The translations under genes were made by a program, and so were the position numbers. Of a DNA stretch of 64,000 nt, positions 26,069-50,438 are shown piece by piece. Position 1 is the first letter of the stretch; each line of letters opens with the position of its first letter. Source of the DNA: an uncultured Litoreibacter sp. Its GTDB lineage: Bacteria; Pseudomonadota; Alphaproteobacteria; Rhodobacterales; Rhodobacteraceae. The stretch is taken from the NCBI GenBank assembly GCA_947493265.1, contig CANLQL010000002.1, positions 62,001 through 126,000 of the forward strand, written 5' to 3'. The notes under the pieces are model-generated. The model searched no databases. It had not been told where the DNA came from and saw only the letters and a list, made by a program, of their open reading frames with translations.

Positions 26069-26902
26069 TTACTCGGCGCAGCGGATTGGAATTTCCACCA
26101 CATCGCCACCACGGCGGGTCCGGATTGTACAAACCTTCTTGGCCTGACGCTGAACACGAACCGGATCTGCGATACCCAGAAGCTGGTTTTGGTCAACTTC
26201 AACCGCGGCAACCTCGTCCTGGTCATCGGCCCCGATCAGGGCCAAGGTCAAACGACCTGTGGATTGTGCCAGTGCCAAGGCCGCGACTTGTTGCGGCGAG
26301 GCAGATACAGTGACAGTCCGCGCGATTGTTGGTGCAGACCGATCGCCATCTGCGATTTGGTCAACAGCCAGAAGCGTAATGCCTGTGTCGATCAGCTGAG
26401 TTACTTCGCGGCCTTGGCTGTCGCCTGTCCAATAGACATCGACGCGGTCACCGGGACGCAGGAAGCCCGAAACACCGGAAGACACGTCAACACGAAGCGC
26501 AAACGCACGCATACCTTTGGCAAGGCGGGAAGACACACCGGCGTCTTCGCCAGGTGCTGTGACTTTGGCTTTCAGGATGGCTTCATGCTTTTCCATGACG
26601 CGCAGAACTGTGCGCAGCTCGTCCCCATCAGGAAACAGCGCTTTTGGATCGACAAATGCGCCCTCTGGCACACCTTCTTTCGGCCATGACATCACACTGA
26701 CGTCTGATTTGTTCAGCTTTTGGCCATATGCCATCCGCTTGTTGACGACGTAGACCTTTGTCAGTTCAACCTGACTTGCCAGCGCCCGGCGCTGGTCTTC
26801 TACTGTAGATTGATATTCACCGATCCGGTTTTTCGCCATATAGGCTGCAAAGCCTGCAAGGCCGATCCCCAAAATCAGAACAAGTCCAAAAACCAAGCGC
26901 AT
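26069..26902 (-). CDS. cpaB: CpaB/RcpC, Tad pilus assembly SAF-domain protein
   Basis: A 277-residue protein with one N-terminal membrane anchor/signal (about residues 2-22, LVFGLVLILGIGLAGFAAYMA), a SAF/RcpC domain (about 48-115, VYVVNKRMAYGQKLNKSDVSV in part) and a second RcpC-type region with GFLRPGDRVDVYWTGD. Periplasmic; supports the secretin CpaC. It is bracketed by two terminator-like hairpins, so its expression relative to flp and cpaC may differ. Confidence 0.93.
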   Translation of the reverse strand: MRLVFGLVLILGIGLAGFAAYMAKNRIGEYQSTVEDQRRALASQVELTKVYVVNKRMAYGQKLNKSDVSVMSWPKEGVPEGAFVDPKALFPDGDELRTVLRVMEKHEAILKAKVTAPGEDAGVSSRLAKGMRAFALRVDVSSGVSGFLRPGDRVDVYWTGDSQGREVTQLIDTGITLLAVDQIADGDRSAPTIARTVTVSASPQQVAALALAQSTGRLTLALIGADDQDEVAAVEVDQNQLLGIADPVRVQRQAKKVCTIRTRRGGDVVEIPIRCAE

Positions 26903-30858: not shown

Positions 30859-31434
30859 ATGAACAACACCGCCGATCCTTTGGCTGACCTATCTGATGAC
30901 GCGGTGCTGGTGCTCTACGTGAATGGCGACGCACAGGCAGCCGGGATTTTAACGCGGCGGTTGGCCCCGAGATTGCTAAGCTATACCACGCGGATCCTGC
31001 GCGACCGGGCTGAGGCAGAAGATGTTGTGCAAGACGCGATGATGCGGTTATGGCAGATGGCCCCGAAATGGCAGCAGGGGGACGCGAAGCTGTCCAGCTG
31101 GCTTTTCAAGGTGGCCAGCAATCTTTGCACTGACCGTCTGCGCAAGCGACGTGGTGTGGGATTGGATGAAATTGCCGAACCTGTCGATGATACGCCGGGG
31201 GCGGCAGACAAGATGATGCAGGCCGAACGGGTCTCGGCGCTGGATGCAGCACTTGCGACATTGCCGGACCGGCAAAGGCAAGCTGTGGTCCTGCGCCATA
31301 TAGAGGGTCTGACAAACCCGGAAATTGCCGACATATTGGACGTGTCGGTTGAGGCGGTCGAAAGTCTGACCGCACGGGGTAAGCGGGCGCTTGCAGCCAG
31401 CCTTGCCCCGAAACGAGAGGAAATAGGGCTATGA
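30859..31434 (+). CDS. ECF-type sigma-70 factor
   Basis: A 191-residue extracytoplasmic-function sigma factor. Region 2 (about residues 33-95) shows RAEAEDVVQDAMMRLWQ and KLSSWLFKVASNLCTDRLRK; region 4 (about 125-180) shows LDAALATLPDRQRQAVVLRHIEGLTNPEIADIL in part with the helix-turn-helix. It directs RNA polymerase to a stress regulon. Its stop overlaps the next gene by 4 bases (ATGA), which fits a sigma/anti-sigma pair. Confidence 0.95.
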   Translation: MNNTADPLADLSDDAVLVLYVNGDAQAAGILTRRLAPRLLSYTTRILRDRAEAEDVVQDAMMRLWQMAPKWQQGDAKLSSWLFKVASNLCTDRLRKRRGVGLDEIAEPVDDTPGAADKMMQAERVSALDAALATLPDRQRQAVVLRHIEGLTNPEIADILDVSVEAVESLTARGKRALAASLAPKREEIGL

Positions 31435-31799
31435 CGCGCGCGCATGGGGATGATGACACCGAACTGGCAGGGCTGGACGCCTTGTTTGAAGACGCCAAGG
31501 CGCATCCCACAGACTTGCCAGACAGCTTGTTTGGCAAGATCGTCGCGGATGCAGACGCAGTGCAGCCACAGATCGCCACCAACCCGCAACACCCGCAATC
31601 CTTTTGGGGCGGCGTGTTGGCGGCCCTTGGGGGCTGGCCTGCTTTTGGCAGTCTGGCGACGGCCGCGGTTGCGGGCCTTTATATAGGAGTGTCTGATCCG
31701 ACGCTCGCCACGAACCCGTTTTCCATTGATCCAGACGTTGAGTTTTCGGAGTTCCTGTCGGATGACAGCAGCCTCTTTGATGCGGAGATCGCCCAATGA
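31431..31799 (+). CDS. Putative anti-sigma factor, single-span membrane protein
   Basis: A 122-residue protein with a cytoplasmic N-terminal part (LAGLDALFEDAKAHPTDLPDSLFGKIVADA in part), one transmembrane segment (about residues 68-87, PAFGSLATAAVAGLYIGVS) and an acidic periplasmic tail. No zinc HxxxCxxC motif is visible. Its 4-base overlaps with the sigma gene before it and the sensor gene after it make an anti-sigma role likely; the family is not recognised from residues alone. Confidence 0.7.
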   Translation: MTRAHGDDDTELAGLDALFEDAKAHPTDLPDSLFGKIVADADAVQPQIATNPQHPQSFWGGVLAALGGWPAFGSLATAAVAGLYIGVSDPTLATNPFSIDPDVEFSEFLSDDSSLFDAEIAQ

Positions 31800-32281
31800 C
31801 CACGTCCCCTTCTGAGAACAAGACCCGCAATTGGATGCGGATTGCGCTGGTCGGATCGCTGGCCCTGAATTTGCTGATCGTGGGCATTTTTCTGGGGGCC
31901 AAGCTGTCCGGCGACGGACCGGGAGACCGGCGGGGGGGTCATAACCTGCCGATCGGCGTTTTGGGCCAAGCCCTGGACCGGGATGACCGTCGCGCCCTTG
32001 GGGCGGCGTTTCGCAAGGAAATGCGCAAGACCCGCGGGGCCGAAGCCACGCGGGTTGATGGTGCAAGGTTCCTTGAGGTTCTGCGCGCCCCAGAGTTTTC
32101 GGCCGCTGAGCTGGAAGAGCTGATGAGCAATCAGTTTGCCCGCTCGCGTGCCTCGTTTGAGGTAGGCCGCGTGCTGCTTCTGGAAAAGATCACCGAAATG
32201 ACCCCAGAAGAACGCGCAGCTTATGCTGACCGTTTGGAAGAAGGGGTCATGCGAAAGCTGAAAAACAAGCGCAAACCGTAA
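31796..32281 (+). CDS. Periplasmic heavy-metal-sensor (Metal_resist/CpxP-like) protein
   Basis: A 161-residue membrane-anchored protein: one helix (about residues 16-36, IALVGSLALNLLIVGIFLGA) and a helical periplasmic domain of the metal-resistance/Spy-like fold with DRDDRRALGAAFRKEM, LEVLRAPEFSAAELEELM and EKITEMTPEERAAYADRLEEGV in part. No Cys and few His, so direct metal sensing is doubtful; it may sense envelope stress. Third gene of the sigma operon. Convergent with the diguanylate cyclase gene, 7-base gap. Confidence 0.82.
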   Translation: MTTSPSENKTRNWMRIALVGSLALNLLIVGIFLGAKLSGDGPGDRRGGHNLPIGVLGQALDRDDRRALGAAFRKEMRKTRGAEATRVDGARFLEVLRAPEFSAAELEELMSNQFARSRASFEVGRVLLLEKITEMTPEERAAYADRLEEGVMRKLKNKRKP

Positions 32282-32288
32282 GGTCGCG

Positions 32289-33647
32289 CTAAGCCGCCAC
32301 CAGGGACAGGTTCACCGTGTTCCGGCCATCGGATTTCGCTGCATAAAGCGCTTTGTCCGCCGCATGCATGATGTCGTTGATCGGGCCGTCACCATAGCTG
32401 AGCGTGGCCCCGACACTCATCGTCACGTTAAATTGCCCGTCACCGTCAAAGCGCAGGCTTTCAATCTTCTCGCGCAGTTTGTTGGCGGTGCGAACGGCCA
32501 GCTTTTCATCGGAGCAGGGCAAGGCGATCAGAAATTCCTCCCCGCCGATCCGGGCCAGCAGGTCGATATCCCGCAATGTGTCTTTCAACGTTTGCGCAAT
32601 TTTCTTCAGCACCACGTCGCCCGCTAGATGGCCATGCTTGTCATTGATCTGCTTGAAGTGGTCGATATCAAGGATCAGCAGCGCAAAGCTTGATTTCGTT
32701 TGCCGCGCTTCACTTGCGATCTTGTCCAGCTTGCTGACCGCGTAGCGGCGGTTGCGCACGCCCGTCAGCGGGTCTGTCGTAGCCATGCGTAGCCCGTCCT
32801 GAATGCAGACATTCAGATAGTCGTCCTTCTGTCGGTTGTCCGAGAGGCGCTGGATCAGTAGGGAGATTACCTCAGGCTCCGGCATTTCGGTGAACACATG
32901 GTCCGCACCACGATCGTAGGCGCGGGCAATTTCGCTGCGCTTGGCCCCCGGCAGGATCACAACAAGCCCAAATATATAGGCGGACCGGGTGGAGCACATT
33001 TCGCTCAGCAGTCGCAATGTCGCCCCGGTGTCGCGATTATGCGATCCGATAACCAGCACGTCATAGGCACTGGAGGACGGTCCAGAGAACAGGATTTCGC
33101 TGTGATCCAGCACATCGACGATGCCTGCAAAATCCCCGATCAGTTGCGTGCGCAGCTTGTCCGCGGCTTCATAATTGCGCGACACGCACCCGACCGTTGC
33201 AGGGCGTTTGGTCAGGCGGCGCGGGACGGAGATTTCTTCCACGTAATGTTCGCGGTCGCGAATGTCCTTCAGAAGCCGCGAGGTTCGGATCATCGCGCGG
33301 GCTTTGGACAAAAGGACCGTGTCGGGAACGGGGTTCTCCATAATCGCACTGGCCCCGGCCTCCAGCAAATCGACCTCCGGGCAATCAAGCGGCATCTCTG
33401 CAAAGCACAGGATCGGGATGTGGCTGGTGTCAGGATGAGATTTCAGGTTCTTGCAAATGGCTTTGGCCGCATCGGCCCCAATATTGAGCGCCAGAAAGAT
33501 CAGATTCGGCATCTGCGTTCTTGCCGCCTGAACCGCATCCCCAACCGATGGCGCAATCGCGACGCGGAAATGGGCAGCGCTTAACTTTGTTTTCAGGATG
33601 ATACGGTTGATAGAAATTCCATCAACGACCAGAATTCTTCCGCCCAT
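32289..33647 (-). CDS. PleD-like diguanylate cyclase with degenerate receiver
   Basis: A 452-residue cytosolic protein with REC-REC-GGDEF layout. GGEEF active site at 368-372 and the inhibitory RxxD site RDID at 359-362 are intact, so c-di-GMP synthesis with product inhibition is expected. The first receiver has lost its phosphorylation residues: Gly10 for the second acidic residue, Ala53 at the acceptor Asp, Ala83 at the Thr switch, Asn105 at the Lys. The second receiver is also degenerate. Start ATG 33647 has AAAGGCGG upstream; an ATG 15 bases earlier has none. Control may come by protein contact, not phosphorylation. Confidence 0.9.
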   Translation of the reverse strand: MGGRILVVDGISINRIILKTKLSAAHFRVAIAPSVGDAVQAARTQMPNLIFLALNIGADAAKAICKNLKSHPDTSHIPILCFAEMPLDCPEVDLLEAGASAIMENPVPDTVLLSKARAMIRTSRLLKDIRDREHYVEEISVPRRLTKRPATVGCVSRNYEAADKLRTQLIGDFAGIVDVLDHSEILFSGPSSSAYDVLVIGSHNRDTGATLRLLSEMCSTRSAYIFGLVVILPGAKRSEIARAYDRGADHVFTEMPEPEVISLLIQRLSDNRQKDDYLNVCIQDGLRMATTDPLTGVRNRRYAVSKLDKIASEARQTKSSFALLILDIDHFKQINDKHGHLAGDVVLKKIAQTLKDTLRDIDLLARIGGEEFLIALPCSDEKLAVRTANKLREKIESLRFDGDGQFNVTMSVGATLSYGDGPINDIMHAADKALYAAKSDGRNTVNLSLVAA

Positions 33648-33703
33648 ATCCGCCTTTCGCATTTTCTTTAAATCTCGTTGGGCTTAGTTGTTGGTCATCT
33701 TGA

Positions 33704-33731: not shown

Positions 33732-34022
33732 GTGGCGTCACAGGCTCAAAAAGATCAGGCAACCGCGCTGGCGCTTCAGGCGCTGGGCTGGATTGTGTCG
33801 ACAGATGACCTGTCGGGCGTGTTCCTCAATGCCAGCGGTGCCTCAGCCGAGGACCTGCGTGAAAACGCAGAAGACCCTGAATTTCTGGGCTCTGTGCTGG
33901 ATTTTCTGATGATGGATGACGCTTGGGTGATCGGCTTTTGCGATGAGGTCGGCTGTGCCTACACGCAGCCCGGGATCATGCGCCAATTCTTGCCGGGCGG
34001 TGACTTGCCGAACTGGACCTAG
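33732..34022 (+). CDS. DUF3572 family protein
   Basis: A 96-residue soluble protein, start GTG. Features ALALQALGWIVSTDDLSGVFLNASG and ADDPEFLGSVLDFLMMDDAWVIGFC-type segments of the alphaproteobacterial DUF3572 family (the residues here read EDPEFLGSVLDFLMMDD). Small, acidic, all-helical. Function unknown; usually located near pleD/divK-type genes in alphaproteobacteria, as here. Convergent with the dehalogenase gene (3-base gap). Confidence 0.83.
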   Translation: MASQAQKDQATALALQALGWIVSTDDLSGVFLNASGASAEDLRENAEDPEFLGSVLDFLMMDDAWVIGFCDEVGCAYTQPGIMRQFLPGGDLPNWT

Positions 34023-34025
34023 GCC

Positions 34026-37000
34026 TTACAGATCGATCTCGATGATGCCGCCCGCGTCTTTTGCGCGCGACTGACACAGAATCATCGCCCCGGCCCGGTC
34101 TTTGTTCGACAGCACGAAATCCCGGTGTTCAACCTCGCCCGACAGGACCGTGCATTTGCAAACTCCACAAAGCCCGTCTGAACATTTGACATCCACATGC
34201 ACACCTGCCGCCAGAAGCGCATCGGTTGGCGCAGTTTCAGCGGGGACAAATACGTCCTGTCCGGACTTGACCAGCCGCAGCGTGAAGTCGTGGTTTTCAT
34301 ACTCCGGCGCATCCGGAACAGCGAAATACTCCAAATGACGCGCCTCGTCCGGGAACCCGTTGGCGGTTGCGGTGTCCATGACCGCGGTCATGTAGCTTTC
34401 CGGCCCGCAGGTATAAACATGGGCCCCGTCTTGGGCGCGCAGAAGATGGGTCAGATCGGCGCGGCTGCCTTCGTCGGAAAAATGTAGATGCACGTTGGCC
34501 GCCCACGGTACCGCAGCCAAATCGTCCAGAAACCCCGCCCCGGCGCGGCTGGAGCAGCTGTAATGCAGCGCAAACGGCTTGCCCAACCTGTGCAACCGAT
34601 GGGCCATCGCAATCATTGGCGTGACACCGATCCCACCGCCCATCAGGTAGCTGAACGAGGCACCCTCATGCAGCGGAAAATGGTTGAGCGGTTTGGAGAT
34701 AAAAACCTTGCGCCCTTCTTCAAAGATCCGGTGCATCAGTTTTGAGCCACCCCGCCCAGACTCCTCCCGCAGAACGGCGATCTGGTATTTCGTGCGATCA
34801 TCCGGATCACCAGACAGGGAGTATTGGCGCAGAAATTCAGGGGCCACGACGACATCTATATGCGCCCCAGCCGTCACCGGGGGCATGTCGCTGCCATCCG
34901 GCATGGAAAATTCGTATTTCGCGACGCCGCCGGCCATATGGTCCACCTTTGACAGGACGACCTGCATCACAGGGCTTTCTGACTGATCGGCGGTGTAGAT
35001 ATGTTCGGGCGGCTGGCCCGCTGCGCGGCGGCGCTTATGTTCACTGGCCGGGACCATGTCGCTATAGGCCTGAATGCCCGCCTCGCGGTCCATCGGGAAT
35101 GGATAGTTATAGGGGGGTGGTGCCAAAGGTGCGGGATAGACCGCCAAGGTCTGGTCCTCAAACTTCAGGTTTAGATCCTTGGATAAGGGCCGTTCATTGA
35201 CCGGATGCGCGGAGGGGCGATACGCGCCGTCATCGACCATTTCCAGGTCCCACCACCATTTCTTGACGGGGTTGATCTCCCCGTTGCCCAGCATATCGTC
35301 CAGCTTGGCCAGCGTTCTTGCCGCCCCCGGCATGTTCATTGCAGCCCAGCGGAATGGCGTCTCGGCAAAAAGACCTTCCAGATTCCACGGGCAGGTTTTC
35401 ATGCACCGGCCACACATGGCCCCGTTTTTCTGCGAAATGCGGTAGGTGGTACATTTCTGACTGTCGGATTTCCAAATCTCGTAGCCATTAAACATCAGCT
35501 TCGGGCCAGCGGTGATTGCGCCGGACGGACATTCACGGGCGCATTTGTTGCAGGCTTCGCAGAACCGTTGCAGACCAAAATCGATCGGCTTGTCATGGGT
35601 CATCGGCATGTTTGTGGTGACAACACCGGATTTCAACCGTGGACCCAGATAGGGGTTCAGGATAACCTCGCCAATCCGGGAAACTTCGCCCAGCCCCGCC
35701 AACAGCAACAAGGGCGGGTGCAAGACCTCATCATCCATGACCGAATGGACCCGCGCAGTGTAGCCCAGATTGCGAATATGTTGCGCCAGAACACCGCCTA
35801 GCAACGAAAACCGCAGATAGGCCCGCATGGATTGCGCGCAGGCAATCCAGTCATCGCCGGAAGCCCCTTCCATCGTCTCATGGCCCTGATCGATGATCAT
35901 CGAGATCGCATTTTCGTGGTAGGGCGTGATCTTTTGGCCTGCCGCGTCATGCGAATAGTAAGCCCAGTCGGGACAAGCCGACAGACCTGCTGCATCAACC
36001 CCAAGCCAGTACAGTGCGGCTTTGATATTGGCGGCATTGCGGGCGGCATCATTTGTGGAGGGGTGAACCGCAGCCGCATCCCCGTCCTGAAGCAGCACAA
36101 AGGCCCCCAGCGATGGACGGAACGCATAGGCGGCTGCGGACTTGCGGACGTAATTGCCGTTTTTCGTGGCTTCCTGGTTGGACACGCCCATGTCACCAAA
36201 CAAGCTGCGGGCAAACATATTAGCGCGTTTGGGCACGCGGGCGACATTTGCAGCGTCTATATAAGTTGTCGGCTCATCTACCCGTTTCAGCTTTTCAAAC
36301 GGATGCGGCCCATCCGCAAAATCGCGCTTGGCATAGGGGTCATGGTTCCCGGCAGATCGCGCATTGCTGCCCAACCCTTTCGACCACGCCAGCACAGAAG
36401 GCTGTTTTGGGCTGAGGCAGGCATCCGCAGCCATCGCAAGCGTGGTTGTAATGACAGACAGTCCAAAGCGGCGGCCCAGAAACGGGTTTTGTCCGTCCGG
36501 CGTCAGAAGCCCCGCGGCAATGGCCAGTTTGCCCAGATCAATGTCGGTGGCGGCTTGAGAATGCGCGCGCGCGTCGTGGCCCAACGTACGGATGTAACTG
36601 GCGAGCGTGACGGCGGTTTCCATCGCCCGCAGGCAGGTGCGCTGATCCTGCGCGCCTTTGATCCAGTCGCTTCCCGGCTCATCGGGTCGCGGATCGCGCG
36701 GCATATCGTAAAGAAACACCAGCGCATGGGTGTGGTGCTGACAGGTGGTGGGGGGTGCGCGCAGGCTTTCCTTCAGCCCGGCCATGATCACATCGATCCC
36801 AGCCGCCAGGCTTTTTGGTTGCATGGTTTCGATCTTGGCCGCCAAGCGGTCGACATCCGGGTTATGTGCCGGCGTTTCCAACCAACTTCGCGCAGGGATC
36901 TCACAAACGCCCACCATTGCGGCATCGCAATAATAACCAAAGGACTTGAGATGCTGCGTGCGCGCGTCCAGATCCTCCGGGATCTCGGCCTGTTCTTTCT

Positions 37001-37211
37001 TGATTAACCCGTCGCGGGTCGCATCAAGCATTGCTTGGTAGTCCTGCATCGCGTTGACGATGCTCAACGGGTCATCGGGACGGCGAAAGGTTAACGGCTC
37101 AAACGGGGCAATCTGAGACAAATCGGGCGCACCTGCGGTGTGGCTGAGCTTTTCGCAAGGGTAAGGGCCGTAGTGAAACGGCCTGTTGCGATAGGAAAAC
37201 ACCTTACCCAT
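34026..37211 (-). CDS. Self-sufficient catabolic reductive dehalogenase fused to NAD(P)H reductase
   Basis: A 1061-residue fusion. Residues 1-320: RdhA-like half; 370-545: cobalamin-binding core; 551-561: [4Fe-4S] ligands CEACNKCARECP; 587 and 600-607: second cluster (C587, CGRCMKTCP); 745-965: ferredoxin-reductase type domain with RQYSLS (795-800, flavin), GGGIGVTPMIAM (858-869) and YTCGPESYM (933-941); 1010-1046: plant-type [2Fe-2S] with CSDGLCGVC and C1046. No Tat signal, so cytoplasmic. The layout matches BhbA/NpRdhA-type enzymes, which remove halogen from halophenolic acids with NAD(P)H and B12. The true substrate is unknown. It lies 14 bases downstream of marR. Confidence 0.9.
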   Translation of the reverse strand: MGKVFSYRNRPFHYGPYPCEKLSHTAGAPDLSQIAPFEPLTFRRPDDPLSIVNAMQDYQAMLDATRDGLIKKEQAEIPEDLDARTQHLKSFGYYCDAAMVGVCEIPARSWLETPAHNPDVDRLAAKIETMQPKSLAAGIDVIMAGLKESLRAPPTTCQHHTHALVFLYDMPRDPRPDEPGSDWIKGAQDQRTCLRAMETAVTLASYIRTLGHDARAHSQAATDIDLGKLAIAAGLLTPDGQNPFLGRRFGLSVITTTLAMAADACLSPKQPSVLAWSKGLGSNARSAGNHDPYAKRDFADGPHPFEKLKRVDEPTTYIDAANVARVPKRANMFARSLFGDMGVSNQEATKNGNYVRKSAAAYAFRPSLGAFVLLQDGDAAAVHPSTNDAARNAANIKAALYWLGVDAAGLSACPDWAYYSHDAAGQKITPYHENAISMIIDQGHETMEGASGDDWIACAQSMRAYLRFSLLGGVLAQHIRNLGYTARVHSVMDDEVLHPPLLLLAGLGEVSRIGEVILNPYLGPRLKSGVVTTNMPMTHDKPIDFGLQRFCEACNKCARECPSGAITAGPKLMFNGYEIWKSDSQKCTTYRISQKNGAMCGRCMKTCPWNLEGLFAETPFRWAAMNMPGAARTLAKLDDMLGNGEINPVKKWWWDLEMVDDGAYRPSAHPVNERPLSKDLNLKFEDQTLAVYPAPLAPPPYNYPFPMDREAGIQAYSDMVPASEHKRRRAAGQPPEHIYTADQSESPVMQVVLSKVDHMAGGVAKYEFSMPDGSDMPPVTAGAHIDVVVAPEFLRQYSLSGDPDDRTKYQIAVLREESGRGGSKLMHRIFEEGRKVFISKPLNHFPLHEGASFSYLMGGGIGVTPMIAMAHRLHRLGKPFALHYSCSSRAGAGFLDDLAAVPWAANVHLHFSDEGSRADLTHLLRAQDGAHVYTCGPESYMTAVMDTATANGFPDEARHLEYFAVPDAPEYENHDFTLRLVKSGQDVFVPAETAPTDALLAAGVHVDVKCSDGLCGVCKCTVLSGEVEHRDFVLSNKDRAGAMILCQSRAKDAGGIIEIDL

Positions 37212-37225
37212 AGCGCATTGCGTCC

Positions 37226-37684
37226 CTAAAAATTCGACAAGAAGGCATCTTCGCCTTCACGCATGCGGATAAGCAGGGCACGCAGGGTTTCGCGTTCGCT
37301 TTCGCTCAGCTTGTTTGCGAAATGCTTTGCATTTGCGTTTGCTGCGGGTACCGCCTCATCCAGCATATCGCGTGCTTTCTGCGTAGCGGTGACAACGGTG
37401 CGGCGGCGATCATTTCGCCCGGTGCCGCGTTCGATCAGACCGTCTTTTTCCATATGCCTCAGCGCGCGCGAGGTCGCCGTGCGATCTATGCCCACGAAAT
37501 CCGCGATATCAGACGGGCTGGACAGGCGTTCTTCGACCACAGCCAGCAAAATGCACCAGTTCAGGCGGGTCAGACCGATCGGTCGCAGACATTCCTCCAG
37601 ACGCCGCTCAAACACCCGACTGGTCAGGGTGGATTGGTAGCCAATCGAGGCATGAAGCGAATAGCGTTTGATCTCTGCGGACAT
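37226..37684 (-). CDS. MarR-family transcriptional regulator
   Basis: A 152-residue winged-helix regulator. MarR DNA-binding core LSSPSDIADFVGIDRTATSRALRHMEKDGLIERGTGRNDRRR (in part; about residues 48-90) with the basic wing. MarR proteins often sense phenolic ligands. It lies 14 bases upstream of the dehalogenase gene on the same strand, so it is probably the operon's own regulator. The open frame to 37822 overlaps the divergent HAD gene; ATG 37684 is preferred. Confidence 0.9.
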   Translation of the reverse strand: MSAEIKRYSLHASIGYQSTLTSRVFERRLEECLRPIGLTRLNWCILLAVVEERLSSPSDIADFVGIDRTATSRALRHMEKDGLIERGTGRNDRRRTVVTATQKARDMLDEAVPAANANAKHFANKLSESERETLRALLIRMREGEDAFLSNF

Positions 37685-37732
37685 GGGCGTCAGTGTCGGC
37701 CACGCGATGGGTAGCGTCAAGGAACAGCAGGC

Positions 37733-38428
37733 ATGATCAAGGCAATTCTTTTCGACAAAGACGGCACATTGATCGACTTTCACAAAACCTGGGGGCGCTG
37801 GGCTGCTGGATTTTTGAACCATGTCGCAGATGGCGATGAGGCGCTTGTTGAAAAGCTTGCTGCGGCGATCCGATTTGATCCTGCAACCTTCCAGTTTGCC
37901 CCCTCAAGCCCGGTGATTGCAGGCACGCCGGAAGAAGGCGTGAATTTGATCGCGCCGCATCTGCCCCAATGGCGCTATGACGATCTTCTGGCCTGTTCCA
38001 ATGACATGGCCCGGGACGCGCCCTTGGCCGAGGTACTGCCATTACGCCCGTTTCTGGCAGCCTGCCGGTCTGAAGGGTTGGGCCTTGGTGTGGCGACCAA
38101 CGATTCCGAGGCTACGGCCCGCGTGCATATGACCACCCTGGGGGTGGAAGATATGTTTGACGCGATTATCGGCTCAGATTCCGGGCATGGCGGCAAACCC
38201 GGCCCTGGTATGTGTCTGGCGTTTGCCCAGAAACTCGGCCTTGATCCGGGCGAGGTTTTGATGGTCGGCGACAGCACCCATGATTTCGAAGCGGGGCGGG
38301 CGGCCGGTATGGCCTGTGTGGGCGTTCTGACCGGCGTCGCCAGCCGAGATGACCTGGAACCCCATGCGGATGCGGTTTTCGGCAATATCGGTGCGATCCC
38401 CGATTGGTTAAGAGCCCGCGCCAGCTAA
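37733..38428 (+). CDS. HAD-family phosphatase, phosphoglycolate phosphatase-like
   Basis: A 231-residue HAD hydrolase. Motif I FDKDGTL (residues 7-13) with nucleophile Asp8, motif II region GVATNDS, motif III Lys in GHGGKPGPGM and motif IV MVGDSTHDFEAG. The DxDGT form predicts phosphatase, not haloacid dehalogenase activity. Divergent from marR over a 48-base gap that must contain both promoters. Substrate unknown. Confidence 0.9.
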   Translation: MIKAILFDKDGTLIDFHKTWGRWAAGFLNHVADGDEALVEKLAAAIRFDPATFQFAPSSPVIAGTPEEGVNLIAPHLPQWRYDDLLACSNDMARDAPLAEVLPLRPFLAACRSEGLGLGVATNDSEATARVHMTTLGVEDMFDAIIGSDSGHGGKPGPGMCLAFAQKLGLDPGEVLMVGDSTHDFEAGRAAGMACVGVLTGVASRDDLEPHADAVFGNIGAIPDWLRARAS

Positions 38429-38518: not shown

Positions 38519-40075
38519 ATGGCAGAGGCCTCAACGAAGCGCAGACGGTCCGGCGGACGGGCGGGCAACGCGCGGCGCACCGACAGCCTGCTGCCAGACC
38601 AGATGCCCTGGAACCCACCGGTCAATCCGGACCGTCCGACCGAACCGCTGGACGCAGATGGGGTGCAGGCGATCCATCAAGGCTGCCTGCGCATCCTGTC
38701 GGAACTGGGGATCGAGTTTCTCAACCCCGAAGCGTGTAAAATCCTGAAAGAAGCGGGCTGCAAGGTCGAGGGTACGAACGTCAAAATGGACGAGGATTTC
38801 GTGATGGAAATGCTCTCCCACGCGCCGGAGACGTTTACCCTAACACCGCGCAACACCGACAGGCGACTGACCGTCGGCGGCAAGCATATGCTGTTTGGCA
38901 ATGTGTCTTCGCCACCCAACGCCTGGGATATGGAACGCGGCAAGCGGTCCGGTGACTTTGAAACCTACAAGGAATTTCTCAAGCTCACGCAATTCTTCAA
39001 CTGCATCCATTTCGCAGGCGGCTACCCGGTGGAGCCGATCGACGTTCATGCCTCCGTCCGACACCTCGATTGTCTTTATGAAAAACTGGTTCTGACGGAC
39101 AAAGCCGTGCATGCCTATTCGCTGGGCCGCGAGCGGGTCGAAGACGTGATCGAGATGACCCGGATCGCAGGCGGGCTGTCCCATGCGGAGATGGACAAAA
39201 GCTCCCACATGTACACCAACATCAACTCTGTCTCGCCGCTCAAGCATGACTTTCCGATGCTCGAAGGGGCCATGATCTGCGCGCGCCGCAATCAGGCGGT
39301 GATCGTGACGCCGTTCACGCTGGCAGGTGCCATGGCCCCGGTGACAATGTCGGGTGCTGTCGCGCTAAGCCTTGCAGAAGGGCTCGCCGCGATTGCGCTG
39401 TTGCAATACATCAATCCGGGATGCCCCGTGGCCATTGGGACGTTCACTTCCAACGTGGATATGAAAACCGGTGCGCCTGCGTTCGGCACGCCGGAATATA
39501 TTCGCGCCACGCAGATGACGGGTCAAATGGCGCGGTTCTACAAGCTGCCGATGCGATCATCCGGGGTTTGCGCGGCCAATGTCCCGGACGGTCAGGCCAT
39601 GTGGGAGACGTCAAACTCCCTTTGGGCGTCGGTGCAATCTGGAACGAATGTCGTCTACCATGCGGCCGGATGGTTGGAAGGCGGTCTGATCGCCAGCCCG
39701 GAAAAATTCATCATGGATTGCGAGGTTTTGCAGCATATCCAGCGGTATTTTGAGCCCGCAACTTGGGCCACATCCGAAGGCGATATCGGATTTGATGCGA
39801 TCAAAGAAGTTGGTCCGGACGGGCACTACTTTGGCTGCCAGCATACGCAGGACCGCTATGAGACCGCGTTTTACCAGCCCATGATCAGCGACTGGTCGAA
39901 TTTTGAAGCCTGGGATTTGAACGGTGGGGTCTGGACCGCAGAACGCGCCCACAAGATGTACAAGGCAATCATCAACGAATTTGAGGCCCCGTCTCTGGAC
40001 CCTGCAATCAAGGACGAGTTGCAAGCATTTGTTGCCAAACGAAAAGAAGAAGGCGGCGCGCCGACGGACTTCTAA
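38519..40075 (+). CDS. MttB-like corrinoid methyltransferase, without pyrrolysine
   Basis: A 518-residue member of the trimethylamine methyltransferase (COG5598) family: N-terminal basic tail, then FLNPEACKILKEAGCKVEG, TLTPRNTDRRLTVGG, LSHAEMDKSSHMYTNINSVSPLKHD (in part) and C-terminal LDPAIKDELQAFVAKR. The frame has no internal amber, so it is a non-pyrrolysine homologue, like the glycine betaine methyltransferase MtgB. Such enzymes move a methyl group from a quaternary amine to a corrinoid protein. No corrinoid protein gene lies beside it. Substrate is open; methylated amines such as glycine betaine are likely for a marine bacterium. Confidence 0.9.
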   Translation: MAEASTKRRRSGGRAGNARRTDSLLPDQMPWNPPVNPDRPTEPLDADGVQAIHQGCLRILSELGIEFLNPEACKILKEAGCKVEGTNVKMDEDFVMEMLSHAPETFTLTPRNTDRRLTVGGKHMLFGNVSSPPNAWDMERGKRSGDFETYKEFLKLTQFFNCIHFAGGYPVEPIDVHASVRHLDCLYEKLVLTDKAVHAYSLGRERVEDVIEMTRIAGGLSHAEMDKSSHMYTNINSVSPLKHDFPMLEGAMICARRNQAVIVTPFTLAGAMAPVTMSGAVALSLAEGLAAIALLQYINPGCPVAIGTFTSNVDMKTGAPAFGTPEYIRATQMTGQMARFYKLPMRSSGVCAANVPDGQAMWETSNSLWASVQSGTNVVYHAAGWLEGGLIASPEKFIMDCEVLQHIQRYFEPATWATSEGDIGFDAIKEVGPDGHYFGCQHTQDRYETAFYQPMISDWSNFEAWDLNGGVWTAERAHKMYKAIINEFEAPSLDPAIKDELQAFVAKRKEEGGAPTDF

Positions 40076-40153
40076 ATGTCCTGAAAATCTTAGCTATTTG
40101 GCTTATTTTAAGACTTCTGGGTTCTAGTGCCTTTCAGATTTTGGAGGGTAGCT

Positions 40154-40756
40154 ATGTACGGTTTGGTGAACCGCTCGATACAGTGTTTCGTCGAAGATAC
40201 GTATGGGCGTATGGTCTGGGAACGCATCATCGCTGATGCGCGCTCTGAGGTCGTCGACTTCGAAGCCATGCTCTCCTATGACGATGCGCTGACCGGGCAA
40301 GTCATTGAAGCGACGGCAAAACATCTGTCTCGGGATCGATCCGGCCTGCTGGAAGATCTGGGCAGCTACCTTGTGACCCACCAGCATATGGAAGCGGTTC
40401 GCCGCTTGTTGCGCTTTGGCGGGCATACATTTGAAGACTTCCTGCAATCGCTTGATGATTTGCATGACCGGGTGAAACTGGCCGTGCCAGATTTGGAGCT
40501 TCCATTTCTAACCTTGGAACAACAGTCTGAGGAAAGCTACACTGTCGCCTGCCGGTTTTCGGAACCTGGATATGGTGCGGTGCTTTTGGGCATGCTGCGC
40601 GCGCTGGCAGATGACTACGGCGTGCTGGTTCTACTGGATCTTGAAGATGCGAATGACGGTGAAGCCCCGTATGAATTGCTGAAGGTCAACCTGCTGGAAA
40701 CCTCTTTCGCGTCCGGGCGCAGTTTCTCACTTGCGGGTCAGGCGGCGGGGCAATGA
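40154..40756 (+). CDS. H-NOX (heme NO-binding) sensor protein
   Basis: A 200-residue HNOB-domain protein starting MYGLVNRSIQ, a typical H-NOX opening. The heme-ligand histidine is His104 in DDLHDRVKLAVPDLELP, with Pro112/Pro117. The YxSxR heme-propionate motif is altered: the segment reads SYTVACRF (Tyr129, Thr130, Ala132, Arg134), so Thr and Ala replace Tyr and Ser if Arg134 is the conserved Arg. Bacterial H-NOX proteins bind NO and inhibit or modulate partner kinases or cyclases. ATG 40154 has TTGGAGGGTA upstream. Overlaps the diguanylate cyclase gene by 4 bases (ATGA). Confidence 0.88.
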   Translation: MYGLVNRSIQCFVEDTYGRMVWERIIADARSEVVDFEAMLSYDDALTGQVIEATAKHLSRDRSGLLEDLGSYLVTHQHMEAVRRLLRFGGHTFEDFLQSLDDLHDRVKLAVPDLELPFLTLEQQSEESYTVACRFSEPGYGAVLLGMLRALADDYGVLVLLDLEDANDGEAPYELLKVNLLETSFASGRSFSLAGQAAGQ

Positions 40757-41760
40757 CGTTTCACGAAAAAGGCCAGTTGATCCTGTCGGATCAGGTTCTG
40801 GATGCGCTGATGCCGCTGCATTTGCGGGTGGATTCCACCGGTATCATTCGCCATTTCGCCCCGACGCTGCGCAAGCTTTGCGAAACGTCGGATGTGATCG
40901 GTAAACCGCTCCTCGATGTCCTGGATATTCGCACCTCCCGCCAGATAACAGAATTTGCTGAGCTTTGTGACGTCAGATCCGCGCGGTTGAAGCTGAATTT
41001 CAAACAAGGCTCTGGCTATGCGTTAAAGGGGCTTTTTGTCCCGCTGCCCGATCAGGGCGCGATTGTGAACCTTTCACTGGGCATTTCCATGCGGGACATC
41101 GTGCGCGATCATGGGCTGTCCGCGGCGGATTTCGCGCCCACAGATTCCACCGTTGATATGCTTTATCTGATCGAAGCCAACACAACCGCTTGGGACGAAA
41201 CCAAGCGCCTGACCGAACGCCTGCAAGGGGCCAAGATCGCCGCCGAAGAACAGGCCTTTTCAGACACGCTTACCGGATTGAAGAACCGCCGGGCGATGGA
41301 TCACTTCGTGCGCAGGTTCCTTGATAAAGCGGTGCCGTTTGGTCTGATGAACCTTGATTTGGACTACTTTAAACAAGTGAATGACACGCTGGGACATGCG
41401 GCCGGGGATCATGTTCTGCAAAAAGTATCTGAAGTGCTGATTTCAGAGACGCGGGATGGGGATGTCGTGGCCCGTGTCGGCGGGGACGAATTCGTGCTGG
41501 CCTTCCGCAACTGTGTCGACCCCAAGATCATAGAAAAAATCGCCCTGCGCATCATCACCATGCTTGAGGTTCCGATCCTGTTTGAAGGCAATATCTGCAA
41601 CGTCTCTGCAAGCGCGGGAACCACGCTGTCGACGCATTACGAAAAGCCGGATCTAGATGTGATGTTGGCCCATGCAGACGCAGCGCTTTACGAATCCAAG
41701 CGCAAAGGTCGGGCGTGCCACACCATGTTCATGCCTGATAACCCACTCAAAGCCTACTGA
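40753..41760 (+). CDS. Diguanylate cyclase, H-NOX partner, with HNOBA-like domain
   Basis: A 335-residue protein. Residues about 15-150 resemble the HNOBA (H-NOX associated, PAS-like) domain of soluble guanylate cyclases (VDSTGIIRHFAPTLRKLCE, KGLFVPLPDQGAIVNLSL). A coiled coil about 148-168 leads into a GGDEF domain with GGDEF at 243-247 and inhibitory RDGD at 234-237. It should make c-di-GMP under control of NO/O2 via the overlapping H-NOX protein. Known H-NOX/cyclase pairs (Shewanella, Legionella) link NO to biofilm change. Confidence 0.92.
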   Translation: MTFHEKGQLILSDQVLDALMPLHLRVDSTGIIRHFAPTLRKLCETSDVIGKPLLDVLDIRTSRQITEFAELCDVRSARLKLNFKQGSGYALKGLFVPLPDQGAIVNLSLGISMRDIVRDHGLSAADFAPTDSTVDMLYLIEANTTAWDETKRLTERLQGAKIAAEEQAFSDTLTGLKNRRAMDHFVRRFLDKAVPFGLMNLDLDYFKQVNDTLGHAAGDHVLQKVSEVLISETRDGDVVARVGGDEFVLAFRNCVDPKIIEKIALRIITMLEVPILFEGNICNVSASAGTTLSTHYEKPDLDVMLAHADAALYESKRKGRACHTMFMPDNPLKAY

Positions 41761-44232: not shown

Positions 44233-45741
44233 ATGAGCGCGTCATCAGATCATATTTCCGCGTCCGTCAGGCCGGGCAACTACCATCCGCATCTTGCCAG
44301 CGGGCGGTCCGCCTTGGCGGTTTTCGGCGTTCTCTGGTCGTCGCTGCATACGTTGATCCCGACACTCAGCTCGGCGTTGGTTTTCTTTGTCAGCGCGCTT
44401 TATCTGACGCCATCCGACTTTGGGCTGGTGGGATTGGCGGCAAGCTTGGTGATGTCAGTTATCGCGTTCTCCCCCGCGGCATTCGGGGAGGCTTTGGTGC
44501 AGCGCAGCGACCTCAACAAGGCACATACGGACAGCGTTTTTTGGTTAACAACGGGCTTCGCGGCTGTGACGTTCCTGCCAATCGTGCTGGGGTCAGGGGC
44601 AATCGCAGGCTGGCTGGGCACGGATGAGATCGCCCCCTTGCTGGCAGTGCTCGCGCTGCGGATTCCGCTGGATCTGATGGCGGCGGTGCCCAATGCGATG
44701 ATCCTGCGGGCGATGAAATTCAAACTGCTTGCGATCCGAACCGCGATTGCAACTTTGGTCAGTGTGACCCTCTGCCTTGGTATGTTGTTTGCTGGTTTTG
44801 GCTATTGGGCGCTGGTTGCCAGTCAGGTGTCGGCCAGCCTTGTAACCTGTCTGATGGCCTTCGCCGTCAGCGGGTGGCGGCCCGGCATCTCGTTGAAAAT
44901 CACGGCAATTCGCGACCTGTCGAGTTACGGTATTTTCGCGTCTGGCAACCGGATGTTGTCCACGATCAAGCTGGATCATCTGGTGTTGGGGGTCCTTGCC
45001 GGGCCGCAAGCGCTTGGCCTTTTTGTCTTTGCGCAACGGCTGTTCCAAATGTTGACGCAGCTCATCGGTGGGACCTTGTCATCTGTCACGCTCAGCCTGC
45101 TTTCCACCCTGCAGGGGGAGCCGGAAAAGACCGCAAAAGCCTTCGCAATCGCGTCTTTTACGGCGGCCGCTCTTAGTGTGCCGATGTTTACGATGGCCGG
45201 CATCCTTGCCCCCGACGTGATCGCGCTTGCCCTTGATCCGAAATGGCAAGGCAGCGCCTTTCTTGTCCAAGGATTTTGCGTCGTTGGCGTCCTGGCGGGG
45301 ATTAGCGTGGTGCAGGCCGCATTGCTCAACAGTCAAGGCAAGGCGCGCTGGTGGTTTTACTATCAGCTGATCCAGCAATCGAGTTCGGTCTTGGTGATCG
45401 CGCTGACCTACAGCTTTGGGTTGCACGTGATGATGATCATCCTGATCGCAAAGACCATCGCGGTTTGGCCGCTTTCAGCCTATCTCACGGCGCGGCTTCT
45501 GGACCGATCCGTCTGGTCATACCTCAGCGAATTTCGGGTGCCGGTTTTTGCAAGTCTTGTGATGGCCGCCGGAATGCTTGGTCTGAAACTGGCGGCCCCG
45601 GATTGGTCCGGCGTGCCGCTTCTGATCGCACAGATCGGGCTGGGCGCGCTGATTTACCTGCCAATCATCGCTTATTTTTCCCGCGACCGTCTGGCGATGG
45701 TTCTGAAAATAATCTCTGCAAAAGGACACTCCACCCCATGA
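44233..45741 (+). CDS. Wzx-type polysaccharide flippase
   Basis: A 502-residue polytopic membrane protein with about 12-14 hydrophobic helices, starting with LWSSLHTLIPTLSSALVFFVSALYLTPSDFGLVGLA in part, the N-terminal signature of MOP-superfamily polysaccharide exporters (ExoT/WzxC type). It should flip the lipid-linked repeat unit across the inner membrane. The stop overlaps the pyruvyltransferase ATG by 4 bases. Confidence 0.92.
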   Translation: MSASSDHISASVRPGNYHPHLASGRSALAVFGVLWSSLHTLIPTLSSALVFFVSALYLTPSDFGLVGLAASLVMSVIAFSPAAFGEALVQRSDLNKAHTDSVFWLTTGFAAVTFLPIVLGSGAIAGWLGTDEIAPLLAVLALRIPLDLMAAVPNAMILRAMKFKLLAIRTAIATLVSVTLCLGMLFAGFGYWALVASQVSASLVTCLMAFAVSGWRPGISLKITAIRDLSSYGIFASGNRMLSTIKLDHLVLGVLAGPQALGLFVFAQRLFQMLTQLIGGTLSSVTLSLLSTLQGEPEKTAKAFAIASFTAAALSVPMFTMAGILAPDVIALALDPKWQGSAFLVQGFCVVGVLAGISVVQAALLNSQGKARWWFYYQLIQQSSSVLVIALTYSFGLHVMMIILIAKTIAVWPLSAYLTARLLDRSVWSYLSEFRVPVFASLVMAAGMLGLKLAAPDWSGVPLLIAQIGLGALIYLPIIAYFSRDRLAMVLKIISAKGHSTP

Positions 45742-46640
45742 AACTGACCTATTTCCAAGGTGATCCGCCCAATTTCGGGGATGAGTTGAACGCAACGATG
45801 TGGCAGCACCTGCTGCCAGAGAACTTCTTTGACCACGACCCGTCGGTTCTGTTCATCGGGATCGGATCGGTCATTCAGCACATTTACCCGAAAGAGGCGC
45901 GCAAGATCGTCGTGGGGTCGGGGTACGGGGGATATACGCGCAAGCCTGATGTGCATGATGGCAGTTGGGATTTCCATTTTGTGCGGGGTCCTCAAACCAC
46001 AGAAGCGCTGGGATTAAGCCCAGATTTGGCCATTGCGGACGCGGCTATTTTGTTGCGGGAAACGCCGCTGCCTGCACCCGCTATGGGGATCAAAACCGCC
46101 TTCATGCCGCATTTTGAAAGCCTTGAACGAGGTAATTGGAAGGCGGCCTGCGCATTGGCCGGGGTCAAGTTTATCGACCCGTCACATCATCCCGACAAGG
46201 TCATCGCGCAAGTGCGCGGGGCCGAGCTTTTGATCACAGAAGCCATGCATGGCGCGATTGTGGCGGATGCGTTGCGCACGCCTTGGATCGGGGTGCGGGC
46301 GATGCATCACGTGCATAGGTTCAAGTGGCACGATTGGGCAGACGCGCTGAATATCGACTATCGCCCGCAATTTCTGTTCCCCTCAAATATACGCGAAGGC
46401 TGGGCGATGACGACCGGGCGTTGGGGGTCTGGACCGAAGATCATGGCTGTCGCCAAAAGCCCGCTTGCCCGGCCATTCAACGGGGCGTGCACGCATCTGG
46501 CGGCGCGCAGTTTGCAAAAACTGGCCAAGATCGAACCGCAACTCAGCCGCGACAGCGAGATTGATCGGGCGACGGATCGGGCGATGACAGCGGTCAAGAA
46601 ACTGATCGACGACTATGGGCCTAACCCCAGTTTCGCGTGA
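45738..46640 (+). CDS. Polysaccharide pyruvyltransferase, ExoV-like
   Basis: A 300-residue enzyme with the opening MKLTYFQGDPPNFGDELN typical of ExoV-type succinoglycan pyruvyltransferases, then FIGIGSVIQHIY, VVGSGYGGY, FVRGPQT and LLITEAMHGAIVADALRTPWIGV in part. It adds pyruvate ketal groups from phosphoenolpyruvate to sugars, giving an acidic polymer. ATG 45738 overlaps the flippase stop; the open frame to 45351 is within the flippase. Its last 28 bases overlap the convergent ExoQ-like gene. Confidence 0.92.
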   Translation: MKLTYFQGDPPNFGDELNATMWQHLLPENFFDHDPSVLFIGIGSVIQHIYPKEARKIVVGSGYGGYTRKPDVHDGSWDFHFVRGPQTTEALGLSPDLAIADAAILLRETPLPAPAMGIKTAFMPHFESLERGNWKAACALAGVKFIDPSHHPDKVIAQVRGAELLITEAMHGAIVADALRTPWIGVRAMHHVHRFKWHDWADALNIDYRPQFLFPSNIREGWAMTTGRWGSGPKIMAVAKSPLARPFNGACTHLAARSLQKLAKIEPQLSRDSEIDRATDRAMTAVKKLIDDYGPNPSFA

Positions 46641-47908
46641 TGTCGCCACGATCTTAGCCCGCGAATGCCATAGACGAAGGCGCAGATGACGATCACGCTG
46701 CGCAGAGAGAATTGAAAGAAGATCGGCACTTCCAGAACGCTGATCATGACCACCATCACCACCAGAAGGAACAGAAGTGCGGCATCTGTTTGGTGGGTTC
46801 GCAACGTCCAGAGACCGGTCGTCACGGCTGCTCCGAACAGCACGAAGCTTTGCAGCATCACGCCCAAAATGCCGATCTCTACGGCATTTGAGACATATGT
46901 ATTGTGAAAGTTGAACCCGCCGCGGCTTTCGATGCCGAACATATGCCAAAGCGCTTCTGCCGGCGCATGTCCGGGAACCCAAAATGCCTGATATCCGACC
47001 CCCAGAATTGGGCGTTCCGCGATGAACCTTGCGGCAATTCGCCAAAGGTCGGTGCGGCCTGTCAGGGTCACGTCTTTGCCCGTCGCCTCCAAAATGGCTC
47101 CGAACAAAGCGTCGGAATTTGCAAGGATCAGCAGCGCCATCAATGCAGAAAGAAGCATCGCGAAGGCGACCGAAACGACGCGCTGCATCGGCGACAATCG
47201 GTAAAGGACCAGCAGCAAGAACTGGATCATCAACGCAGGCGGCAGCAGTGCCAAAGCGCTGACCGACTGTGCCTGAAGCAAAAGCAAAAACCCAGTCATT
47301 GCACCCAGCAACGCCAGGATTCGAAATCTGTACGACGCGTGGCTGTCCAACATTTGCGCGGTGCAGATGATCACATAGGTCGCGGCCGTCCCGGCCATCG
47401 CGTTCTTGCTGCCGTAGATGCCAAGCCAGGCCCCGGTGTCGCTACGAACCTCGCCAAACACGGCGCTTGCGACAATCGCGAGCGAATAGAGCGCGAAAAG
47501 AAGCCGTGTGAAATCGCGCGCTGAAACGGTCGATGCGATCATGATCGCAATCAGAACAGTGGCCATCAATTGCACCCCAAACCGGGCCGAGGTTTCGGGG
47601 TAGATCGACCAAAGCGCGCTGAGGATGCAGAAGGCGGGTAGCGCCAGAATGTACCAGTTGCGCCGCGTGATGGCGAACAGCGCGCGGACATGCCGGACCA
47701 ATAGGATGGCCCCCGCAGCCAGAAACAAAAGCGCCCCAAACTTGCCCAGCACCGTGACAAAAACCAGTCCAAACAGCGCAAGGCCGGTGCACAGGACATC
47801 CGTGTTCAGTGCAATCGTCGACAAATGGCGCGTGGGGTTTCGGCGCCTGAGCGTTCCAGCCGCAACTGCTGCGGGCTGGCCGGGAAATAACTGTTTTTGC
47901 CCTGCCAT
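46613..47908 (-). CDS. ExoQ/O-antigen polymerase-like membrane protein
   Basis: A 431-residue protein with 10-12 transmembrane helices. The WSIYPETSARFG, GIYGSKNAMAG and LTGRTDLWR...GVGYQAFW regions match ExoQ/Wzy polymerases (Wzy_C/RfaL family). It should join flipped repeat units in the periplasm. The gene runs against its neighbours. Overlaps the pyruvyltransferase end by 28 bases. Confidence 0.9.
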   Translation of the reverse strand: MAGQKQLFPGQPAAVAAGTLRRRNPTRHLSTIALNTDVLCTGLALFGLVFVTVLGKFGALLFLAAGAILLVRHVRALFAITRRNWYILALPAFCILSALWSIYPETSARFGVQLMATVLIAIMIASTVSARDFTRLLFALYSLAIVASAVFGEVRSDTGAWLGIYGSKNAMAGTAATYVIICTAQMLDSHASYRFRILALLGAMTGFLLLLQAQSVSALALLPPALMIQFLLLVLYRLSPMQRVVSVAFAMLLSALMALLILANSDALFGAILEATGKDVTLTGRTDLWRIAARFIAERPILGVGYQAFWVPGHAPAEALWHMFGIESRGGFNFHNTYVSNAVEIGILGVMLQSFVLFGAAVTTGLWTLRTHQTDAALLFLLVVMVVMISVLEVPIFFQFSLRSVIVICAFVYGIRGLRSWRHHAKLGLGP

Positions 47909-48080
47909 GTTCCGGTGCTCACTGATCCTTAGATGCTCTATTTTTCAACGATTTACGCGCCTGGTGCAAAACAATTGCGCCCTATGTCCCGGGATGAGCA
48001 TATCGTCGCCGAATTTTGCGGAGATGCGACAATTCATGTGTGTTCTGAAGGCAGAAAAGGTAAACTTTGGGCTGTCGGTC

Positions 48081-50111: not shown

Positions 50112-50405
50112 CTAGTTTTCCCGCGGACGTGTCACCGGATCGGATGCAGGAACCGGCGTGGCCTCTTTGCGGGGTTGAGCTTCCTCGGCTTGGGTTTCGC
50201 TATGCGGAGTTGGTGCCAAATAGGCCGTGATCAGGATCAGGACGAAATAGCCCAACTGAAGCGCGACAAGCACCACGACCACGCGCAGGAAAATCGTCCA
50301 GCCCCCGGCCTCGGCCATATAGGAGCCGATCCCCACGGCAAGGGTAGCGGCCAACATCAAACCAACGAAGATCGACAATCGCACGATCGGTACTCCAAAC
50401 ACCAA
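50112..50405 (-). CDS. ExoX-like small membrane regulator of exopolysaccharide
   Basis: A 97-residue protein with two transmembrane helices (about residues 8-28 and 36-62, FLRVVVVLVALQLGYFVLILITAYLA in part) and a hydrophilic Pro/Glu C-terminal tail. Size, topology and the LQLGYFV segment fit ExoX/PsiA-type exopolysaccharide production repressors, which act post-translationally on ExoY in rhizobia. Here it lies at the end of the exoA-exoP operon. Assignment is by resemblance and context. Confidence 0.7.
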   Translation of the reverse strand: MVFGVPIVRLSIFVGLMLAATLAVGIGSYMAEAGGWTIFLRVVVVLVALQLGYFVLILITAYLAPTPHSETQAEEAQPRKEATPVPASDPVTRPREN

Positions 50406-50438
50406 TCTCGCAATCGTACAGTATGGGGGCCGCCAAAG

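Follow-up and report, generated by a model that had tools for sequence, protein, structure and literature searches.

A predicted self-sufficient reductive dehalogenase of the JtRdhA/BhbA kind in an uncultured Litoreibacter sp.

The stretch analysed here, called the window throughout, comprises 64,000 nucleotides from an uncultured Litoreibacter sp. of the Rhodobacteraceae (assembly GCA_947493265.1, contig CANLQL010000002.1, positions 62,001 to 126,000), and the gene under study, rdhA, encodes a reductive dehalogenase (RdhA) core fused to a reductase. It lies on the minus strand, where an intact open reading frame (ORF) of 1061 amino acids fills positions 34026–37211 exactly; stops interrupt frame 1 of the plus strand over this interval, and of the listed plus-strand ORFs that overlap it the longest has 391 amino acids. 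The single chain of 1061 residues named in a preliminary description of the window is therefore real, and its strand, which was absent there, can be added. The gene, its domains and its key residues are located as follows.

34026..37211, minus strand: fused reductive dehalogenase gene, 1061 amino acids (ORF, profile and structure-sequence matches)
36312..36974, minus strand: vestigial N-terminal copy of the RdhA core, about residues 80–300, borders approximate (BLASTP)
35577..36059, minus strand: B12-binding catalytic core of RdhA, about residues 385–545, borders approximate (TIGR02486, NpRdhA alignment)
35382..35561, minus strand: two [4Fe-4S] sites, C551, C554, C557, C561 and C587, C600, C603, C607 (Fer4_16, residues 551–610)
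34317..34967, minus strand: flavin/NAD(P)H reductase module of the phthalate dioxygenase reductase (PDOR) type, about residues 749–965 (2PIA match)
34038..34286, minus strand: plant-type [2Fe-2S] domain, about residues 976–1058 (Fer2, residues 984–1051)
35838..35840, minus strand: Cys458, equivalent to NpRdhA A419 of the second-halogen pocket (alignment; role of A419 from PMC7565698)
35817..35819, minus strand: Tyr465, equivalent to the proton donor Y426 of NpRdhA (alignment)
35631..35633, minus strand: Lys527, equivalent to NpRdhA K488 (alignment)
35439..35441, minus strand: Arg591, equivalent to NpRdhA R552 (alignment)

The NCBIfam model TIGR02486 ('reductive dehalogenase') matches the protein with 191.6 bits (cut-off 160.35; best stretch residues 424–643), and the Pfam families Fer2, Fer4_16 and Fer4_7 all exceed their own cut-offs. 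Using phmmer against proteins of solved structure, the top match was NpRdhA (4RAS, 6ZXU) over residues 159–732 (E 5e-158), with a weaker second stretch at residues 3–105, and the C-terminal third (residues 749–1057) was matched by phthalate dioxygenase reductase 2PIA (E 1.7e-55); NCBIfam oxidoreductase models match this module only below their cut-offs. RQYSLS is found at residue 795, GGGIGVTPM at 858 and YTCGPE at 933, and the [2Fe-2S] cysteines are 1010, 1015, 1018 and 1046. All domains and all cysteine, flavin and NAD(P)H motifs named in the preliminary description could thus be located, in agreement with the TIGR02486, Fer2, Fer4_16 and 2PIA matches. A BLASTP comparison of residues 60–300 with residues 380–560 (34% over 110 amino acids, E 1e-12) revealed a duplicated RdhA core, and this N-terminal repeat fits the vestigial duplication of the cobalamin domain described for catabolic RdhAs in PMC10463259. 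Three features of a self-sufficient catabolic RdhA are therefore present together, namely the core with two [4Fe-4S] sites, the PDOR-type reductase with its [2Fe-2S] domain and the vestigial duplication.

For the active site we compiled an alignment of 121 rows, 118 of them distinct, which leaves 116 distinct homologues besides the window protein and NpRdhA. Six sequences stand outside it: L082 and L121 (reductase only), L117 (a shorter RdhA-like protein), the split copies L125 and L126, and L095 (a copy in two pieces). The residue numbering of NpRdhA was verified at twelve named residues. Its F291, S422, M423, Y426, K488 and R552 correspond to F333, S461, M462, Y465, K527 and R591 of the window protein, and these six residues, like all eight [4Fe-4S] cysteines, are kept in 116 of 116 distinct homologues. 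The [2Fe-2S] cysteines are kept in 114, 113, 113 and 113 of the 116, the exceptions being gaps and one serine. Thus, the catalytic Tyr, Lys and Arg positions match those of NpRdhA and BhbA, the comparison proposed in the preliminary description, and the RdhA–reductase fusion of the BhbA/NpRdhA type that it had suggested is supported by the matches as well as by these residues.

Judged from its sequence, the window protein is very probably a cytoplasmic, self-sufficient and NAD(P)H-driven reductive dehalogenase of ortho-halophenols of the JtRdhA/BhbA kind, and by analogy it would most likely remove bromine or iodine from phenol-like compounds. We infer its chemistry, electron path, preference for bromo- and iodophenols and oxygen tolerance from characterised relatives. 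In the proposed mechanism NAD(P)H would reduce the flavin in the reductase module, from where electrons would reach a base-off cobamide by way of the [2Fe-2S] domain and then the two [4Fe-4S] clusters. Once reduced, the cobalt would take the halogen off an ortho-halogenated phenol gripped by Ser461, Lys527 and Arg591, Tyr465 would supply the proton, and halide and dehalogenated phenol would be released. This path and the role of the tyrosine are modelled on JtRdhA and NpRdhA (PMC10463259, PMC7565698). The host genome encodes cobN (B12 synthesis) above cut-off. A single self-supplied protein that carries out reductive debromination aerobically would be useful for the clean-up of brominated phenols.

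In order to place the protein among its homologues, groups were drawn first at 68% identity and later from a FastTree tree of 568 core columns. In this tree the window protein falls in a group that comprises 81 rows and has a local support of 0.949, with several weak nodes inside it; one of the 568 columns is the pocket residue itself. This residue, A419 in NpRdhA, lines the pocket for the second bromine according to PMC7565698. Inside the group it is Cys in 78 rows, Ser in two and Thr in one, and in the 40 rows outside it is Val in 36, Ser in two (BhbA and Nitratireductor OM-1), Ala in NpRdhA and Gly in the unfused L115, so that 36 of the 38 fused homologues outside the group carry Val. After removal of duplicates 77 distinct homologues remain within the group and 39 outside, and some of the fused ones outside are plasmid-borne or have pobA or TRAP genes as neighbours.

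The two groups also differ in their genomic surroundings, for which the following neighbours of rdhA are needed.

33732..34022, plus strand: DUF3572 gene, one border of the conserved site (homologues across loci)
37226..37822, minus strand: MarR-type regulator gene, 14 bases upstream of rdhA (homologues across loci)
37733..38428, plus strand: HAD-like hydrolase gene, other border of the conserved site (homologues across loci)

Within the window's group a HAD relative lies at most 5 kb from rdhA in 63 of 77 distinct loci and a DUF3572 relative in 53 of 77, both counts being lowered by short flanks at some loci, and neither was found near rdhA at any of the 39 loci of other homologues. Some group copies are distant from the HAD gene (about 3 kb in congener G019, about 7 kb in G015), and one locus of the site (L060) is titled chromosome. 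In six congeners (G008, G010, G013, G016, G017 and G018; 6/6 examined) DUF3572 and HAD stand 0.5–2.0 kb apart with no rdhA between them; a seventh, G012 (57% complete), was left out as it gave no strong HAD match. G010 and G016 are without this type of RdhA and the other four have a copy of 64–65% identity elsewhere. A lumazine synthase-like ORF is present at four of the six rdhA-free sites and also in G016, there beside one more ORF, the Pfam search covering only the G018 copy. Because HAD and DUF3572 flank the group copies and rdhA-free sites exist in congeners, the window copy occupies a shared, apparently chromosomal site at which some genomes have the gene and others lack it, a pattern that does not distinguish gain from loss. 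A partial literature search found no description of the Cys/Val split or of the conserved site. We regard the split into two groups as one point of modest new interest, and as it runs through both pocket residue and genomic place, substrate range becomes directly testable with one enzyme per group.

The adjoining marR gene of the preliminary description is real, and shorter homologues suggest that its translation starts near 37684. A MarR homologue lies no more than 400 bases from rdhA at 41 of the 77 loci of the window's group and at three of the 39 others, an Aminobacter plasmid among these three, and from its position the MarR protein probably controls rdhA. As a MarR operator none of the four 6-base inverted repeats in 37600–37860 is convincing.

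Several points weigh against the window protein being a catabolic, MarR-controlled halophenol dehalogenase of the JtRdhA/BhbA kind. A structure prediction from 16 sequences was discarded (mean predicted local distance difference test score, pLDDT, 61.7; predicted template modelling score, pTM, 0.48; cluster region poor), and the likeness to JtRdhA rests on the description in PMC10463259 and not on a direct sequence alignment. K307 of NpRdhA, reported in PMC7565698 to form a salt bridge with the carboxylate in one (non-productive) 3-bromo-4-hydroxybenzoate product complex, is replaced by Thr349, and none of the 116 distinct homologues has Lys at this position, so that the sequence does not point specifically to a benzoate substrate. 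No MarR neighbour was detected at 36 of the 77 loci of the group, and the G008 site keeps a MarR relative (L137, 7990–8463) without a dehalogenase there, a 65% identical one lying about 105 kb away; the link between MarR and rdhA is thus not absolute. Finally, no ring-cleavage or 4-hydroxybenzoate genes were seen near rdhA among 20 window ORFs scanned, so that the term 'catabolic' rests on homology, and tblastn placed relatives of pobA, ligA/B, extradiol dioxygenase or hmgA near none of 82 loci of at least 68% identity (some of them one genome twice; 60 with flanks of 5 kb on either side). At 6.6–7.9 kb from the dehalogenase gene the same loci contain two aldehyde dehydrogenase relatives and one each for a TRAP permease and a TPP-enzyme. 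A bromoxynil-type catabolic operon, with ring-cleavage or 4-hydroxybenzoate genes adjacent, is accordingly not seen.

The same chemistry might serve detoxification or salvage of natural bromophenols and not growth, the enzyme being a resident one outside any catabolic operon. This role, to which we give a serious but somewhat less than even chance, is favoured by the conserved site with its unrelated HAD and DUF3572 neighbours and by the lack of pathway genes at the 82 loci. However, pathway genes may sit elsewhere: pobA (4-hydroxybenzoate hydroxylase, above cut-off) and hmgA are both encoded in the host genome away from rdhA, and with these and cobN dehalogenated 4-hydroxybenzoate could be usable by the host. 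Furthermore, JtRdhA in E. coli W supports growth on 3-bromo-4-hydroxyphenylacetate (PMC10463259). Should many bacteria of a largely marine group possess a resident copy at a conserved genomic position, reduction may account for part of the organobromine turnover in oxygenated seawater. It is a rather doubtful, though testable, extension that the group forms a functionally separate resident branch with a Cys (Ser/Thr) pocket, mostly at one site and without a catabolic operon, which would act on different halophenols such as natural marine bromophenols in standing detoxification or salvage, the Val- or Ser-pocket relatives being mobile, substrate-specific catabolic versions.

Co-occurrence with pobA was also considered as a substrate clue. 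Within the host's family 89 of the 112 fusion-bearing genomes have pobA, as do 110 of the 183 others (Fisher p 5e-4), but the control hmgA associates more strongly (98/112 versus 101/183, p 4e-9), and the clue was dropped as non-specific; the p values are descriptive only, the genomes being related. Among 68 genomes compared, out of the 89 with both genes, pobA and rdhA lie at most 0.4 kb apart in three (G093, G216, G246), whose dehalogenases are only 61–65% identical to that of the window, so that this adjacency is no argument for the window copy. TRAP transporter genes occur near some less similar homologues. The loci L145–L150 were selected because pobA or hmgA lies close by, and do not count as independent observations.

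Other explanations change the reaction itself. An RdhA-type enzyme that reduces something other than a halophenol, in a non-halogen reduction, would be consistent with a pocket that departs from NpRdhA at positions 290, 307, 310, 311, 419 and 452, and we know of no assayed member of the window's group. Nevertheless, the residues for phenol-oxygen binding and proton donation are conserved, and ortho-halogenated phenols are the substrates of the catabolic RdhAs characterised up to 2023 (PMC10463259), which makes this explanation improbable. A respiratory RdhA of organohalide-respiring type shares the core, as seen in the match to PceA (4UQU, E 8e-31), but it is very improbable: a simple motif test found no Arg-Arg pair ahead of residue 43 and thus no N-terminus resembling a twin-arginine translocation (Tat) signal, a simple hydropathy scan of 24000–47000 found no RdhB-like ORF (45–160 amino acids, at least two predicted membrane spans), and an NAD(P)H reductase is fused on. 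The preliminary description had called the enzyme cytoplasmic and non-respiratory for want of a Tat signal and a nearby RdhB gene; both absences held in these simple tests (for RdhB within 24000–47000), and the architecture supports the conclusion. No second RdhA above the RDH cut-off was found in the host genome. Epoxyqueuosine reductase (QueG) or a derivative acting on tRNA, the alternative raised in the preliminary description, can practically be dismissed, as TIGR00276 matches with a weak 24.6 bits against a cut-off of 200, a separate QueG elsewhere in the genome scores 437.7 bits and the RdhA active-site set is complete.

Around the conserved site the window contains further genes. The intervals 30859–32281 (plus strand) and 32289–33662 (minus strand) code for an ECF sigma factor, a heavy-metal-resistance-like protein and a PleD-like diguanylate cyclase, and contain a short candidate anti-sigma gene that has no Pfam match; this ECF sigma/PleD block recurs beside the site in many relatives with the dehalogenase present or absent. 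At 38519–40075 (plus strand) an MttB-family methyltransferase homologue has no in-frame stop; it is probably a non-pyrrolysine relative, because its 246.7 bits fall below the cut-off of 525 of the pyrrolysine trimethylamine (TMA) methyltransferase model. MttB relatives lie at most 5 kb from rdhA in 47 of the 77 loci of the group. At 40127–41760 (plus strand) the genes for a haem-NO-binding (HNOB) protein and a GGDEF diguanylate cyclase overlap and likely form a NO-sensing cyclic di-GMP pair. Farther away are polysaccharide synthesis and export genes (44233–52403: flippase-like, O-antigen ligase-like, glycosyltransferase, Wzz/AAA protein) and the Flp pilus assembly protein CpaB (26069–26902, minus strand).

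The fusion is common in the host's family and not exceptional, being present in 112 of 295 genomes sampled across it; this count includes the split copies of G119 and G288 and the contig-clipped G122, and excludes fragment-only genomes and the unfused G053. In the host genus the RdhA part finds a relative in 19 of 21 genomes, with at least 77% identity in 14 (the host's own included, one clipped by a contig end) and 64–65% in five. A scan of named genomes gave 283 relatives, and the titles of the best 80, which were kept, are mostly from Rhodobacteraceae or roseobacter genera. One of these 80, L041, bears the title Pimelobacter and is possibly misbinned. Eight plasmid records cover at least 80% of the query, pBHB with BhbA included. 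In L126 (G288), L125 (G119) and L095 (a Yoonia plasmid) the fused dehalogenase is in two pieces and possibly decaying or mis-assembled. Putative bhbA homologues are described as widely distributed in the Roseobacter clade (PMC13101508, citing BhbA work).

Among known systems, JtRdhA from Jhaorihella thermophila (WP_104007082) resembles the window protein by its description in PMC10463259 (2023): a marine RdhA–PDOR fusion without Tat signal, with a duplicated cobalamin domain and the Y/K/R set, which debrominates and de-iodinates phenols with NADPH, the debromination being aerobic. This species is not among the best 80 of the 283 relatives. The earlier remark that few members are characterised is still fair by number, but this exact architecture has already been purified and assayed from a marine source in JtRdhA. 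NpRdhA from Nitratireductor pacificus (4RAS, 6ZXU, 6ZXX, 6ZY1) is 45% identical in the RdhA core over 568 positions and shares the six active-site residues, but it carries no fused reductase according to PMC10463259 and has Ala419 and Lys307 in place of Cys458 and Thr349. Of Tat-less marine roseobacter enzymes, Ros_A3X954 from Roseobacter sp. MED193 is active on 2,6-dibromophenol but is a shorter protein with [4Fe-4S] motifs at 283–345 and belongs to a different cluster (PMC13101508); a record of strain MED193 additionally includes L077, a fused relative of the window protein. Congener G011 encodes a second, shorter RdhA-like protein (L117, 6961–8127; 33% over residues 385–610), possibly of the Ros_A3X954 type. 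The fused RdhA on the megaplasmid of Ruegeria sp. TM1040 (L091) has the same architecture (66% over 1055 positions) but differs in its Val pocket, its place outside the window's group and its gene context. BhbA from plasmid pBHB of Comamonas sp. 7D-2 (WP_015585978, L090) shares the full-length architecture and the catalytic residues with 49% over 1052 positions; unlike the window copy it lies on a plasmid typed conjugative, close to ligAB and a pobA-like stretch, and has Ser at the A419 position. The window protein is thus a well-preserved example of an already known enzyme family.

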